Notes under the pieces: generated by a model
The model's database searches: none
What the model was told of the DNA's origin: nothing
The model's input: only the letters and a program-made list of their open reading frames with translations
Made by a program: the position numbers and the translations under genes
Source: an uncultured Pseudomonadota bacterium
Lineage (GTDB): Bacteria > Pseudomonadota > Gammaproteobacteria > Steroidobacterales > Steroidobacteraceae
DNA length: 64,000 nucleotides
NCBI GenBank assembly: GCA_903832085.1
Contig: CAIKZZ010000040.1
Location: 1 to 64,000, forward strand
Reading direction: 5' to 3'
Shown: positions 5,987 to 13,476 of the stretch, piece after piece
How positions within the stretch are numbered: position 1 is the stretch's first letter
How the letters are laid out: each line of letters opens with the position of its first letter

Positions 5987-6278
5987 GAAGCGTGCTCTTG
6001 CAGTGAGAGTGGCAAAGGGCGTGCGGATCATCGCGCGCAGGGACTGGATCATAGCCGCCCGCGTTCCAGGGATGACAGCGCAACACGCGTTTAATCGCGA
6101 GAAATATCCCCGCTCCTGACCCGTGCTGACGCAGTGCGTCGAGCGCGTACTGCGAACAGCTTGGATAAAACCGGCAACGTGGACCTAACAGCGGGCTAAT
6201 CCCGTAACGGTACAATTGTATAAGACCCACACAGAAGCCGTTAACGGACGCACGCAGCACATGACGTAGACGCTTCAT
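5979..6278 (-). CDS. yidD: Membrane protein insertion efficiency factor YidD
   Basis: This small 99-residue protein carries the signature of the family: [22 protein letters not shown] followed by SQYALDAL and [12 protein letters not shown]. It has conserved cysteines and an N-terminal amphipathic helix that docks at the inner membrane. It assists YidC-dependent insertion. The start codon overlaps the stop of rnpA (ATGA), and the 3' end overlaps the start of yidC by eight bases, the standard arrangement. The C-terminal tail after the conserved core ([19 protein letters not shown]) is longer and more His/Cys-rich than in most members. It coincides with the overlap region, so it may be a by-product of the overlapping yidC start. 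Confidence 0.95.
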
Positions 6279-6661
6279 GCGGACCTCGGCGTGGAACTCT
6301 GCGCTGGCGTTTGTGGTCGTGTGGCGCGCTCGATCAGCGCCTGCAAGCTGCCCGCGATAGCGTCACGCATAGCGGTTTTCGCGCCCGGACGGCTAGTAAC
6401 CACAAAATCCATGGCGGGCAACTCGGTCAAATGAGCACGAAATACTTCGCGAATAATGCGCCGGACGCGGTTGCGATTGACGGCATTGCCAACGGTACGC
6501 GTGCTCACCGACATCCCAAGACGGGCGCAACCACGCTCGTTAGGTAGGGCATTCACAGCAAACAGATTATCCCCCGCACGCCGACCCTGCCGGTAGACGC
6601 GCTCGAACTCTGCTGGCGCGTGTAACCGATGGTGGGGTCTGAACGGATAGAGGTGAATCAC
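6275..6661 (-). CDS. rnpA: Ribonuclease P protein component
   Basis: RnpA is the basic protein subunit that helps the RNase P RNA bind and process the 5' leader of precursor tRNAs. The 128-residue product has the RNR motif in [17 protein letters not shown], preceded by the conserved [12 protein letters not shown] strand. The start is GTG at 6661, giving [13 protein letters not shown]; no better ATG lies upstream. The gene follows rpmH by 36 bases and overlaps yidD by four bases. The C-terminal 20 residues (Pro/Ser/Thr/Ala-rich) are a poorly conserved tail. The RNA subunit gene is not in the window. Confidence 0.96.
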
Positions 6662-6697
6662 GGCGCCGCGTTAGACATGCGGCTAAGCCCGTAGTCT

Positions 6698-6832
6698 TTA
6701 AGGAATCAACCGCTTGCGGCCTTTCGCGCGTCGGCGCGCCAAGACCTGACGACCCTTCTTGTCCGCCATGCGGGCGCGAAAGCCGTGTGTCCGATTGCGT
6801 TTGACCTTACTCGGCTGATAAGTGCGCTTCAT
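6698..6832 (-). CDS. rpmH: 50S ribosomal protein L34
   Basis: This 44-residue, strongly basic protein starts [18 protein letters not shown] and ends AKGRKRLIP, which is unmistakably ribosomal protein L34. It is short enough to be missed by length-filtered gene finding. L34 is a late-assembling protein of the large subunit near the peptide exit side. The ATG at 6832 is preceded by a GGAAG ribosome-binding sequence about eight bases upstream. It is the first gene of the rpmH-rnpA-yidD-yidC-mnmE operon and is transcribed away from dnaA, as in most bacteria. Confidence 0.97.
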
Positions 6833-6883
6833 AGCAAAAACTTCCAAGGAAACAAGTAGATGGCGAATCGATTTGAGCCGCGC

Positions 6884-6912
6884 AGACTAACTGGCGCGCG
6901 AGCACTTGTCAA
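6884..6912 (-). promoter_or_regulatory. Sigma70 promoter of the rpmH operon
   Basis: On the minus strand a perfect -35 box TTGACA (6907-6912) is separated by exactly 17 bases from a -10 box TAGTCT (6884-6889). It sits about 50 bases upstream of the rpmH ATG and is the only strong promoter match in the rpmH-dnaA gap. A high-output promoter fits a ribosomal-protein operon. Confidence 0.7.
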
Positions 6913-7052
6913 CTTCATCGCAATCACGGTCGGATGGGCTGCACGAGCGGGCGGCCCACGACCCATGCAATAGCCGTTGCATCCGGCTGGTGCGGGTATA
7001 GACTCCTCTGCCCCCTTTTTACCTCACCTTCGACCACGAGCGAACACAACGG

Positions 7053-8402
7053 ATGTCCCCAGTCGAAGTGAGTAGTCTTTGGAGTGAGTGTTTACGGCAG
7101 CTAGAGGCTGAAGTGCCCGAGCAGCTGTATAACGTATGGGTGCGGCCTTTACAGGCTGTATTTGAAGAGCGCCTCATTCGCCTGCTCGCGCCAAACCGTT
7201 TTGTCGTGGATTGGGTCAAACAAAATCTACTCGAGCGAGTTGGCGCCATCCTCGGCAGCTTAGCGCCCGATCATCCCCCGCAAGTGATTTTGGAAGTGGG
7301 TACGCGCGCTGTGACGAGCACCGTGAGCGCCGAGGACCCCACCCCGAGCCGCACCCCCGAACGCGCAGGGCCCACTGTCACAGGTGCGCGCGTTAACCCG
7401 GATTTTACCTTCGACAGTTTTGTTGAAGGCAAAAGTAACCAGCTAGCGAAAGCCGCTGCACGACAAGTCGCCGATAACCCGGGTAAAGCGTATAACCCCT
7501 TGTTTTTATACGGTGGTGTAGGTTTAGGCAAAACCCATTTAATGCATGCGGTGGCCAACGCCATGCGTCAAAAGCGGCCCAACGCCCGCATTGCGTATGT
7601 GCACTCCGAACGCTTTGTGAGCGAAATGGTGCGCGCCTTACAGCACAACACCATGGGCCAGTTTAAACAGGCGTACCGATCGCTCGATGCGCTGTTTATC
7701 GACGATATCCAATTCTTCGCCGGCAAAGACCGCTCACAAGAAGAGTTTTTCCACACCTTCAACGCCCTGCTTGAGGGACAACAGCAGGTCATCTTGACCT
7801 GTGATCGCTACCCTAAGGAGGTCACGGGCCTCGAGGAGCGCCTCAAATCTCGCTTCGGATGGGGACTGACGGTGTCCATCGATCCGCCCGAACTCGAGAC
7901 CTGTGTGGCGATCCTGATCTCTAAAGCACAGAGCGCGAACGTCGACTTGCCCGAGGAAGTCGCGTTTTTCATTGCCAAGCGCATACGCTCCAATGTGCGT
8001 GAGCTCGAGGGGGCCTTACGTCGAGTCGCCGCCAACGCGCAGTTTACCGGCCGGCCGATCACCTTGGATTTCGCCAAAGAGGCGCTACGCGACTTGCTCG
8101 CCCTCCAGGAAAAGCTCGTCACGATCGAAAACATCCAAAAAACCGTCGCCGAATACTACAAAATCCGCGTGGCCGACCTGCTTTCCAAGCGCCGTAATCG
8201 CTCTATCGCGCGGCCTCGCCAAGTGGCGATGTCGTTGTCCAAGGAATTAACCAACCATTCGCTGCCGGAAATAGGCGATGCATTTGGTGGTCGGGATCAC
8301 ACCACCGTCATGCATGCCTGCAAACGGATTAAGGAATTGCGCGATACTGAACGGCGCACCGGCGAAGATTTTTTAAACCTGTTAAGAACACTCACGAATT
8401 AA
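7053..8402 (+). CDS. dnaA: Chromosomal replication initiator protein DnaA
   Basis: DnaA is the AAA+ ATPase that binds DnaA boxes at oriC, melts the unwinding element and loads DnaB. The 449-residue product shows the N-terminal domain I ([25 protein letters not shown]), a short variable domain II (about residues 83-110), and the AAA+ core with Walker [10 protein letters not shown] (154-162) and Walker B LFIDDIQ (214-220). The C-terminal DNA-binding domain IV carries the [12 protein letters not shown] signature near 422-433. The ATG at 7053 gives the usual MS-start. The gene diverges from rpmH. In the 220-base gap between them I see no DnaA box, only a tentative -10-like TATAGA (6997-7002) for dnaA. 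The stop codon abuts a perfect DnaA box. Confidence 0.98.
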
Positions 8403-8411
8403 TGTGCATAA
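8403..8411 (-). promoter_or_regulatory. DnaA box (perfect match)
   Basis: TGTGCATAA on the plus strand is the reverse complement of TTATGCACA, a full match to TTATNCACA. It begins at the base immediately after the dnaA stop codon. It could act in origin function or in autoregulation of the downstream dnaN-recF genes. Confidence 0.65.
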
Positions 8412-8666
8412 CGTGTGTAGGATCACAACGACCCAAAAGCGTGGCAACATATCCACACGACGCTAACAAGGTATACGGTAGTTCGCGGTGCTCTATCCAG
8501 AGGGTTATGAATGCTGCAACTGATCGCTGTTTATCGAGTTTTTAGAGTTATCCCGTAAAAATGGCGCTACAGCTGTAACTACAGCTTTCTTAATTCTTAA
8601 AGATATTCATTAAGACTAAAGAGCAGATGGTTTACCAATGAACAACGATATCGTTAAGGTGATGCG
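8403..8666. other. oriC: Probable oriC: dnaA-dnaN intergenic region
   Basis: This 264-base noncoding gap lies between dnaA and dnaN. It holds one perfect DnaA box on the minus strand (TGTGCATAA, 8403-8411, reverse of TTATGCACA) and one single-mismatch box (ATATCCACA, 8449-8457). Weaker, partial matches occur near 8500 and 8547. Its right half (about 8540-8625) is rich in A/T (attcttaaagatattcatta), suitable as an unwinding element. Gene orientation flips just upstream, between rpmH and dnaA, consistent with an origin nearby. Few strong boxes are visible, so the assignment rests on position and composition as much as on motifs. Confidence 0.6.
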
Positions 8667-9761
8667 ATGAAATTCACAAGCGAACGCGAGCGGATCCTTG
8701 AACCCTTGCAAGCAATCATAGGCGTCGTTGAACGACGTCAAACGATGCCTGTACTGGCCAATGTCTTACTGAGCGTCAAAGGCGGACTACTGTCTGTTAC
8801 CGCAACGGATCTCGAAGTAGAGCTCGTTGCCACCACACAAGTGACCGGCAGCAGTGATGGCGATATCACAGTCCCTGGGCGCAAGTTTCTAGACATCGTC
8901 CGTGCTCTTGCCGACAAGGTAGTTGTTACTTTCAGCGTAACCGGTGACAAAGCGACCGTAAAAGCTGGGAAAAGCCGCTTTACCCTCACCACCCTCCCCG
9001 CGAGTGAATTTCCATCAATTGATGAGATTAATGCCCAACTCGCTTTTGACGTAGAGCAATCTGCCCTTAAGTCATTGATTGATAAGACACATTTTTCAAT
9101 GGCACAGCAAGATGTGCGGTATTACCTGAACGGAATGTTGTTGGAATCTGATGGGAAAATGCTGCGAACAGTCGCGACTGACGGCCATCGTCTGGCATTG
9201 TGCGAGATGGAACTCAAAACTAAGCCGGGTGTGCAGCAAGTGATCGTGCCCCGTAAAGGCATCTTAGAACTCCAGCGCCTATTGGGTAACGAAGGTACCG
9301 TTGCTGTACAAATTGGTAGCAATCACGTTCGCATCACGTTAGGCGACATTCGCTTCACTTCAAAGCTTATTGATGGACGTTTCCCGGAATACAACCGCGT
9401 CATACCCGCGAATCCGAACCGCATCGTCACGGCGGACCGCGAAGTGTTGCGCGCGGCCTTACACCGGACCGCGATCTTGTCTAACGAAAAATACCGCGGT
9501 ATCCGTTTAGCACTGCGGCAAAATATGCTGCTGCTGACCGCCCACAATCCAGAGCAGGAAGAGGCGGAAGAAGAAGTCGAAGTCAGTTATGCCGGTGAAG
9601 AGTTTGAAGTGGGCTTCAACGTGAATTACCTGCTCGACGCACTATCGGCTGTAGGCGGCGTGGAAGTCGAGCTGGGACTCACCGATGCCAATAGCAGTTG
9701 CTTGGTGCGAGCACCTGGTAACGCATCAGGACGCTATGTCGTGATGCCGATGCGTCTCTAG
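8667..9761 (+). CDS. dnaN: DNA polymerase III subunit beta (sliding clamp)
   Basis: The 364-residue clamp forms a ring dimer around DNA and tethers polymerase III and other partners. The sequence shows three repeated clamp domains and typical segments MPVLANVLL, TATDLEVEL, FPEYNRVIP and the terminal VVMPMRL that lines the partner-binding pocket. Length matches the family. The start ATG at 8667 is preceded by AAGGTGATGCG, a reasonable ribosome-binding region. It follows dnaA after the putative origin and precedes recF by nine bases, so dnaN-recF are probably co-transcribed. Confidence 0.98.
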   Translation: MKFTSERERILEPLQAIIGVVERRQTMPVLANVLLSVKGGLLSVTATDLEVELVATTQVTGSSDGDITVPGRKFLDIVRALADKVVVTFSVTGDKATVKAGKSRFTLTTLPASEFPSIDEINAQLAFDVEQSALKSLIDKTHFSMAQQDVRYYLNGMLLESDGKMLRTVATDGHRLALCEMELKTKPGVQQVIVPRKGILELQRLLGNEGTVAVQIGSNHVRITLGDIRFTSKLIDGRFPEYNRVIPANPNRIVTADREVLRAALHRTAILSNEKYRGIRLALRQNMLLLTAHNPEQEEAEEEVEVSYAGEEFEVGFNVNYLLDALSAVGGVEVELGLTDANSSCLVRAPGNASGRYVVMPMRL

Positions 9762-9770
9762 CCGAGGGCA

Positions 9771-10847
9771 ATGTCGCTTAAACGCCTAGAGATTGAGCAG
9801 TTTCGCTGCTTGCAACGGGTCGAGATCACGCTCGACCCGAGCTACAACCTGTTTTATGGAGCAAACGCTTCCGGCAAAACCAGTTTGCTGGAAGCACTAT
9901 TTTTGTTGGGTCGTGGTCGTTCGTTCCGGACGCGACGATTAGATCGGCTGGTGCGACACGGTGAAGCGGGATTCCGCATCGTGGGTTGGACTGAAGCAGC
10001 AGGGCACCAAACCGTGCTGGGTATAGGCGGAAGCCGTCGAGCCACAGAGATTCGTATTGGCGGGCAGGCCGCTGGCAGCGCCGCTGAGCTAGCAGCGCAT
10101 TTTCCGCCGCAAGTGATTGATCCTGAAGTACATAAATTATTAGAAGAGGGCCCGCATCGACGCCGACGGTTCTTGGATTGGGGAGTGTTTCACGTGGAAC
10201 ACACGTTTATGGACGTGTGGACCCGCTACCATCGCGCGTTGCGCCAGCGCAATGCGGCACTCAAACCGGGTTCATCCACTGCCGCTGTGCACGCGTGGAC
10301 ACCTGAACTGTTACTCACCGGCACGCAATTGGCCGAAATGCGCCGCGGCTACTTAGAGTTACTAGGCCCAGCATTGCGGGAGATTGGGCAGCAGCTGCTC
10401 CAGGACGAGGTGAGCTTGGCTTATCAAACCGGTTGGGCAGCTGAGGAAAGCTTTGAGAGTGCATTAGGAAAAAGTGCGGATCGAGACCGGCGTTACGCCG
10501 TCACGCACGTCGGCCCGCATCGTGCGGATGTCGTGGTGCGGGTGGGTGGGCAAGCTGCCAAGGATCGTGTATCACGCGGCCAGCAGAAGTTGTTGGCGGC
10601 TGCGCTAACGCTTGCTCAGCTCAGCGTGCAAGAGCAACGGCAGCCTGGACGTAGCGCATTGCTGTTGGATGACCCTGCCGCTGAATTGGATGTGGGCAAT
10701 CTAGAGCGTTTGTTGAGCGTGGTGCGAGGTTTACGGGTGCAGCTGTTTGTGACTGCGCTGAGCGCCGACCTGCCGGGTTTGGGTACACCGGGCGCATTGT
10801 TTCACGTGGAACATGGGCAGATTAGGCGACACAGCGCAGACAATTGA
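9771..10847 (+). CDS. recF: DNA replication and repair protein RecF
   Basis: RecF is an SMC-like ATPase that binds gapped DNA at stalled forks and, with RecO and RecR, loads RecA. The 358-residue product has Walker A GANASGKTS (30-38), an ABC signature VSRGQQK (277-283) and Walker B with D-loop in LLLDDPAAELD (about 297-308). The pentapeptide FHVEH occurs twice (residues 140-144 and 344-348). Both copies are encoded by an identical 16-base palindrome that matches parS, so the gene doubles as a carrier of centromere-like sites. The gene follows dnaN by nine bases, and gyrB comes 205 bases later with its own promoter. Confidence 0.97.
   Translation: MSLKRLEIEQFRCLQRVEITLDPSYNLFYGANASGKTSLLEALFLLGRGRSFRTRRLDRLVRHGEAGFRIVGWTEAAGHQTVLGIGGSRRATEIRIGGQAAGSAAELAAHFPPQVIDPEVHKLLEEGPHRRRRFLDWGVFHVEHTFMDVWTRYHRALRQRNAALKPGSSTAAVHAWTPELLLTGTQLAEMRRGYLELLGPALREIGQQLLQDEVSLAYQTGWAAEESFESALGKSADRDRRYAVTHVGPHRADVVVRVGGQAAKDRVSRGQQKLLAAALTLAQLSVQEQRQPGRSALLLDDPAAELDVGNLERLLSVVRGLRVQLFVTALSADLPGLGTPGALFHVEHGQIRRHSADN
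10186..10201. promoter_or_regulatory. parS: parS-like ParB binding site 1 (inside recF)
   Basis: The 16-mer TGTTTCACGTGGAACA is a near-perfect inverted repeat centred on CACGTG. It differs from the widely conserved bacterial parS TGTTTCACGTGAAACA at one position. It lies in the recF coding sequence and encodes FHVEH with its flanks. An identical copy lies about 600 bases downstream. parA and parB are not in this window. Confidence 0.75.
10798..10813. promoter_or_regulatory. parS: parS-like ParB binding site 2 (inside recF, near 3' end)
   Basis: This is a second exact copy of TGTTTCACGTGGAACA, 612 bases after the first and in the same reading frame, so it again encodes FHVEH. Two identical 16-base palindromes in one gene next to the origin are very unlikely by chance. 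Confidence 0.75.
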
Positions 10848-10883: not shown

Positions 10884-10892
10884 TGTGCATAA
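10884..10892 (-). promoter_or_regulatory. DnaA box in recF-gyrB gap (perfect match)
   Basis: TGTGCATAA is identical to the box that follows dnaA and is the reverse complement of TTATGCACA. It lies 37 bases after recF and about 125 bases upstream of the gyrB -10 element. It may titrate DnaA or modulate gyrB, or be a remote part of the origin. Confidence 0.55.

Positions 10893-11007: not shown

Positions 11008-13476
<2,469 letters not shown>

Follow-up and report, generated by a model that had tools for sequence, protein, structure and literature searches.

Two probable parS centromere sites within the recF coding sequence of an uncultured Steroidobacteraceae bacterium and their conservation at codon level in the class

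The location of parS in recF is already published for Pseudomonas aeruginosa, and the genome considered here adds another case; in other phyla, parS sites lie mostly outside recF. In P. aeruginosa, recF contains parS1 and parS2 (PMC5521831, PMC3909081), ParB is bound in vivo at parS1-parS4 with an enrichment extending over more than 20 kb (PMC5098823), and any one of these four sites, parS2 alone included, suffices for segregation (PMC4368675). Double mutants of the sites nearest to oriC behaved as the parent, an effect being seen only when all four origin-near sites were lost; moreover, a protein-neutral recoding of parS1 and parS2 abolished the ParB silencing of plasmids bearing them, and almost all the variants tested had an in vitro affinity lowered 2- to 10-fold (PMC4368675). 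In Xanthomonas citri, parS has been located to the 3' end of dnaN (PMC3937727), and in Caulobacter the recF-gyrB region is a hot spot for the insertion of additional parS (PMC5815017). A partial literature search, in which the Livny 2007 survey was not included, found neither a description of class-wide conservation of parS in recF nor a test of it at codon level.

The DNA analysed here, referred to as the window, is a stretch of 64,000 nucleotides from an uncultured bacterium of the family Steroidobacteraceae. An exact search showed that it contains the 16-mer TGTTTCACGTGGAACA exactly twice, at 10186-10201 and 10798-10813, in agreement with the original prediction. When up to three mismatches were allowed, the only extra matches in the window came from these two sites themselves on the complementary strand; the shuffle control for this search (n = 100) gave a mean of 0.49 matches and a maximum of 5, one shuffle reaching 4. 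A chance origin of the pair was ruled out by these shuffles together with the whole-genome search described below. Both copies are carried in frame by a single open frame of the forward strand, where, as had been claimed, each encodes FHVEH; residues 139-144 (VFHVEH) correspond to site 1 and residues 343-348 (LFHVEH) to site 2. The frame scored 334.1 bits against the RecF profile TIGR00611 (cut-off 172), and recF is intact. The features of the locus are as follows:

7053..8402, + strand: dnaA (initiator), whose end is 1.8 kb from site 1; identified by sequence and by a gene order as in E. coli K-12
8667..9761, + strand: dnaN (sliding clamp), upstream of recF; named on the same grounds
9771..10847, + strand: recF, 358 aa, host of both sites; TIGR00611, 334.1 bits
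10186..10201, + strand: parS site 1 (probable), TGTTTCACGTGGAACA; recF codons 139-144 (V F H V E H)
10798..10813, + strand: parS site 2 (probable), TGTTTCACGTGGAACA; 612 bases past site 1; recF codons 343-348 (L F H V E H)
11053..13476, + strand: gyrB, downstream of recF; named as dnaA and dnaN

The gene order around both sites is dnaA-dnaN-recF-gyrB. The cumulative GC skew dips at dnaA, and a comparable dip is present near 24-26 kb. DnaA-box-like matches in the window numbered 4, against 4.06 expected by chance; at this chance-level count, the DnaA-box-like 9-mer TTATGCACA was observed on the reverse strand at 10884-10892, in the recF-gyrB gap, and at 8403-8411, directly after dnaA.

Both copies match the parS consensus TGTTNCACGTGNAACA with 0 mismatches. 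The description of the 16-mer as one base from the canonical site holds with respect to the perfect palindromes TGTTTCACGTGAAACA and TGTTCCACGTGGAACA, but not with respect to the consensus, which is fitted exactly. The forward and reverse strands of TGTTTCACGTGGAACA differ at 2 bases, and its reverse complement, TGTTCCACGTGAAACA, is the classical Bacillus form of parS. The same 16-base consensus is shared with the Spo0J-parS and Caulobacter ParB-parS systems, and the ParB of the present genome has relatives among the solved ParB and Spo0J proteins.

The locus resembles that of P. aeruginosa PAO1 in having a pair of parS embedded in recF, and the two sites occupy the same two columns of the RecF alignment as those of Pseudomonas and Stutzerimonas loci (e.g. 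L007, L013). The published PAO1 letters, TGTTCCACGTGGAACC and TGTTCCACGTGGAACA, are those found at the two aligned positions of the Pseudomonas locus L013, PAO1 itself being outside the alignment. The present site 1 ends with A, in a His codon, whereas that of P. aeruginosa ends with C, in a Pro codon, and P. aeruginosa adds parS3, parS4 and six weaker proposed sites, only the recF pair having been found here within one mismatch. X. citri is similar in that its parS, which is near the origin, is likewise embedded in a gene of this cluster, the difference being that the gene is dnaN. Three Xanthomonas loci (L070, L072 and L086) have a strict site about 250-470 bases upstream of recF, together with two inexact copies in recF itself.

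The draft genome comprises 2,649,145 bases in 48 contigs, with a completeness of 98.89%, and in this draft no third site within one mismatch was found. With up to two mismatches only two extra places were found genome-wide (contigs C10 and C45), each with 2 mismatches. No form of the consensus with C/T and A/G as its free bases is more than one step away from the query on one or other strand, so that this two-mismatch search spans all such forms with one mismatch. In P. aeruginosa degenerate parS with two mismatches were not bound by ParB in vivo (PMC5098823). Unlike P. aeruginosa, the present genome has no reserve sites beyond the recF pair, no further site having been found, and recF holds the whole parS set of this chromosome, provided that the draft misses no site.

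The genome encodes a ParB of 309 aa on contig C28 (195.3 bits, above the TIGR00180 cut-off), directly preceded by a ParA of 267 aa, which was named by reading its sequence (locus L156). A rsmG-like gene upstream of the parA-parB pair and ATP-synthase genes downstream were likewise named from their sequences. The ParB matches 13 distinct solved sequences, among them ParB, Spo0J, Noc and KorB, and SMC is also encoded (family search, 1065 bits). We infer that the ParB of C28 is the cognate ParB of the recF sites. A second, plasmid-like ParA/ParB pair was observed on contig C21 (L157, G000:C21:28000-40000, at 6266-8467 and 8532-9635); a gene adjoining it may be a replication gene, and the contig, which is 140 kb long and carries metabolic genes too, may be a large plasmid, free or integrated.

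The original prediction had proposed that an alignment of RecF from relatives could tell whether the FHVEH codons are kept at the DNA rather than the protein level. In a sample of 118 genomes (the present one and relatives up to the rank of order), 105 had a RecF above the cut-off, and 102 were used; the partial sequences of G063, G077 and G090 were left out, whereas L202, L227 and L229, also partial, were kept. Codon excess over the pooled RecF usage was scored for 124 columns in which at least 70% of sequences share one residue, Met and Trp being excluded. The columns fixed by parS, namely V139, H141, V142, E143, H345, V346 and E347, took ranks 1-7 of the 124, with log-likelihood ratios of 45.6-96.8, against 17.1 for the column next in rank; the two Phe columns, whose wobble base is a free parS base, ranked 14 and 80. 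Since one tree is common to all columns, kinship alone is insufficient to account for this gap. In site 1 His was encoded by CAC in 102/102 sequences, Val by GTG in 102/102 and Glu by GAA in 91/91, and in site 2 the corresponding values were 85/85, 87/91 and 82/86, while the background usage in RecF of the order is 0.58 for CAC, 0.39 for GTG and 0.37 for GAA.

When the peptide FHV[EK] was considered as a whole, it was written CAC-GTG-RAA in 100/100 cases at site 1 and in 81/83 at site 2, the swap of E for K (GAA-AAA) falling on a free G/A position of parS. Among CAC-GTG-RAA peptides of the order and the class at both sites, the Val or Leu codon before Phe ended in TG in 89/89, 44/44, 80/80 and 39/39 cases. 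Of the 102 RecF of the order, 100 had the inner core (any base followed by TTYCACGTGRAAC) at site 1 and 81 had it at site 2; both sites had it in 81, and one or more in 100; L202, whose sequence ends, and L226, which has a gap, were counted as lacking site 2. One or both of the places held a full 16-mer in 64/102.

The class was sampled by a draw of 140 genomes, of which 115 had a RecF above the cut-off (113 after G000 and G029 were dropped); leaving out G145, G192 and G217, 110 RecF were used, each with a different family label. The core was found at site 1 in 91, at site 2 in 88, at both in 79, at one or more in 100 and at neither in 10, and at least one full 16-mer in 76/110; in L324 site 2 has A in place of the outer G. 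For 101 columns with at least 60% of one residue (V139 is absent from these, its column being split between Val and Leu), the six parS-fixed columns took ranks 1-6, and the Phe columns ranked 12 and 17. FHV[EK] was written CAC-GTG-RAA in 91/93 and 88/90 cases, the share of GAA among Glu codons being 0.52 in this sample. The FHVEH codons are thus kept at the DNA level, and the codon usage shows that the letters of the parS sites are under selection as DNA beyond the need of the peptide. This codon-level conservation and the ParA-ParB genes of the genome support the earlier reading of the pair as centromere sites in recF.

In whole genomes of the class, strict 16-mers were present in 94/140 and a ParB match in 135/140. 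A closer set of 60 genomes, including the present one, contained 59 strict sites distributed over 43 genomes, 50 of the sites being at the recF positions (19 at site 1 and 31 at site 2) and 5 elsewhere in or beside recF; the other 4 belong to G019, where they neighbour a second ParB gene on a contig other than that of recF. The RecF was examined in 12 of the 17 genomes without a strict 16-mer, and in 11 of these 12 the inner core was retained at one place at least, mostly as ...GAACC at site 1, which is how P. aeruginosa parS1 and parS4 end. As separate observations, the four palindromes of G019 lie within about 420 bases (C97:186-607), 1 kb before the second ParB match (C97:1563-2096), and L142 (G045) and L121 (G105) have a strict parS at a third place in recF, 188 bases before site 1, the usual two being inexact.

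The distance between the sites, where both cores are present, was 603-693 bases in 81 RecF of the order (612 in 48), 600-669 in 79 of the class and 612-678 in 73 of a named set (L007-L086), which was gathered partly by peptide patterns overlapping the sites and was used for placing and spacing only and not for conservation counts. A fixed spacing was rejected as a signal, since the distance varies over these ranges and so tracks RecF length. In L122, L131, L141, L143, L183 and L193 site 2 is lost and a parS core lies 2-29 bases past the last recF codon. Cores past the end of recF occurred in 6/20 sequences of the order without site 2 against 8/80 with it (Fisher p 0.032; two rows with short flanks dropped), and in the class in 2/21 against 6/88 (p 0.65; one dropped). 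A relocation of site 2 past the end of recF was consequently unsupported overall, as the association seen in the order is absent in the class.

The standard core is missing from both places in 10/110 RecF of the class, 4 of which carry near-parS letters and 6 of which do not. L325 (G200) has TGTTTCATATGAAACA at both recF places and L254 (G138) has TGTTCCACATGGAACA at both, with CATATG and CACATG cores respectively, and in each genome the recF pair accounts for the only TGTTNCAYRTGNAACA matches. In L303 (G120) the core is CACATG at site 1 but CATGTG at site 2, and L329 (G122) has CATGTG at site 1 only; two genomes of the order, G051 and G099, show CACATG in site 2. The alignment with 6t1f was used to place ParB residues by eye: Gly170 is replaced by Ser in G200, and G138 carries Leu at position 171 and Lys at position 204; these positions are among the DNA-contact positions common to ParB and Noc (PMC7383237). 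Unusual contact residues were found in 2/5 of the altered-site genomes aligned. That ParB residues change together with the recF sites is only a lead, and a simple link of this kind is weakened because the ParB of G120, G122 and G051 are ordinary at these positions and G125 has Lys204 together with near-standard sites.

The six RecF lacking the sites and not near-parS are L253, L267, L272, L295, L327 and L330, and a ParB match was found in 5/6 of the site-less genomes of the class (G165, G248, G161, G176 and G159). Drafts negative for ParB disagree, G229 being without both sites, G230 having site 2 and G049 both cores, and these negative calls may reflect misses in incomplete drafts; in the order around G144, ParB was found in 10/10 genomes. 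The contrast between loss of the sites and loss of ParB among relatives is thin and mixed, being weakened by G049, which is ParB-negative and keeps both cores. RecF of E. coli K-12 has CFHNEP and MFTVEK at the two places and neither site. ParB and parS are both described as absent from E. coli (PMC7383237) and from the Enterobacteriaceae (PMC3909081). The control search with TIGR00180 gave a match in E. coli.

It could be supposed that RecF needs FHVEH twice and that the likeness to parS is a by-product. FH.EP is indeed in part a motif of RecF itself, being kept at site 1 in some RecF where parS is missing (E. coli CFHNEP, L272 LFHAEP, L286 VFHSEP), and RecF seems to have offered at site 1 a ready motif one residue from FHVEP. 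However, a constraint on the peptide only was rejected by the codon tests in both order and class: synonymous positions are invariant nowhere but at the bases that parS requires, GAA is used there although it is the minor Glu codon of the order, and both the last residue (H, P, Q or R) and the E/K swaps follow what the DNA consensus allows, which makes this explanation very improbable. It is similarly hard to credit that the palindrome is the site of another protein reading CACGTG, or a signal in the mRNA. Codon conservation alone leaves the DNA reader unnamed, and the five ParB-positive genomes without recF sites and the one ParB-negative relative that keeps them could be quoted in its favour, but the informative positions beyond CACGTG are also frozen while the free ones are free, ParB is found nearly throughout the class draw, and the experiments with P. 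aeruginosa identify ParB as the reader (PMC5098823, PMC4368675); such an origin is extremely unlikely.

A further possibility is that ParB does bind, the selected role being control of the dnaA-dnaN-recF-gyrB operon and not segregation. Excess ParB in P. aeruginosa reduces the expression of almost all genes in PA0003-PA0015, and the authors attributed what happens at the dnaA-gyrB operon to parS1 and parS2 in recF, but loss of ParB or parS raised only genes near the intergenic parS3 and parS4 and not those near the intragenic sites (PMC5521831). The loss of the oriC-nearest sites alone gave no segregation phenotype, yet any of the four origin-near sites, including parS2 in recF, is sufficient for segregation (PMC4368675), and in the draft searched here the recF pair is the only match at up to one mismatch. 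A purely regulatory role is thus highly unlikely.

The two 16-mers in recF are almost certainly parS centromeres, and they very probably are the parS sites of a ParABS system overlaid on recF codons, on which ParB would load and spread while ParA and SMC would separate the origins. The elements at hand are the sequence match, the selection at DNA level, ParB and SMC by family search and ParA as read from its sequence; binding, spreading, segregation and SMC loading would follow by analogy with P. aeruginosa and other species. By this analogy, ParB from the parA-parB pair of C28 would load on both recF sites, the loaded ParB would spread across the neighbourhood beside dnaA, and ParA, together with the loading of SMC, would separate the freshly copied origin regions.

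It is tempting to speculate that recF is an old and often the main or only centromere of the class, with two sites set in two fixed stretches of RecF, selected as DNA and able to change together, although we hold this wider view tentatively, with slightly less than even confidence. A caution follows for the use of the gene, in that conserved synonymous codons of recF may have causes other than RecF. G138 and G200 are natural variants with which the question of a joint change of ParB and its sites could be approached. Across much of the class a repair protein and a centromere use the same letters, and the constraint on individual bases can be made out, as the bases free in parS drift and the others stay; most of the families sampled have a site in recF.
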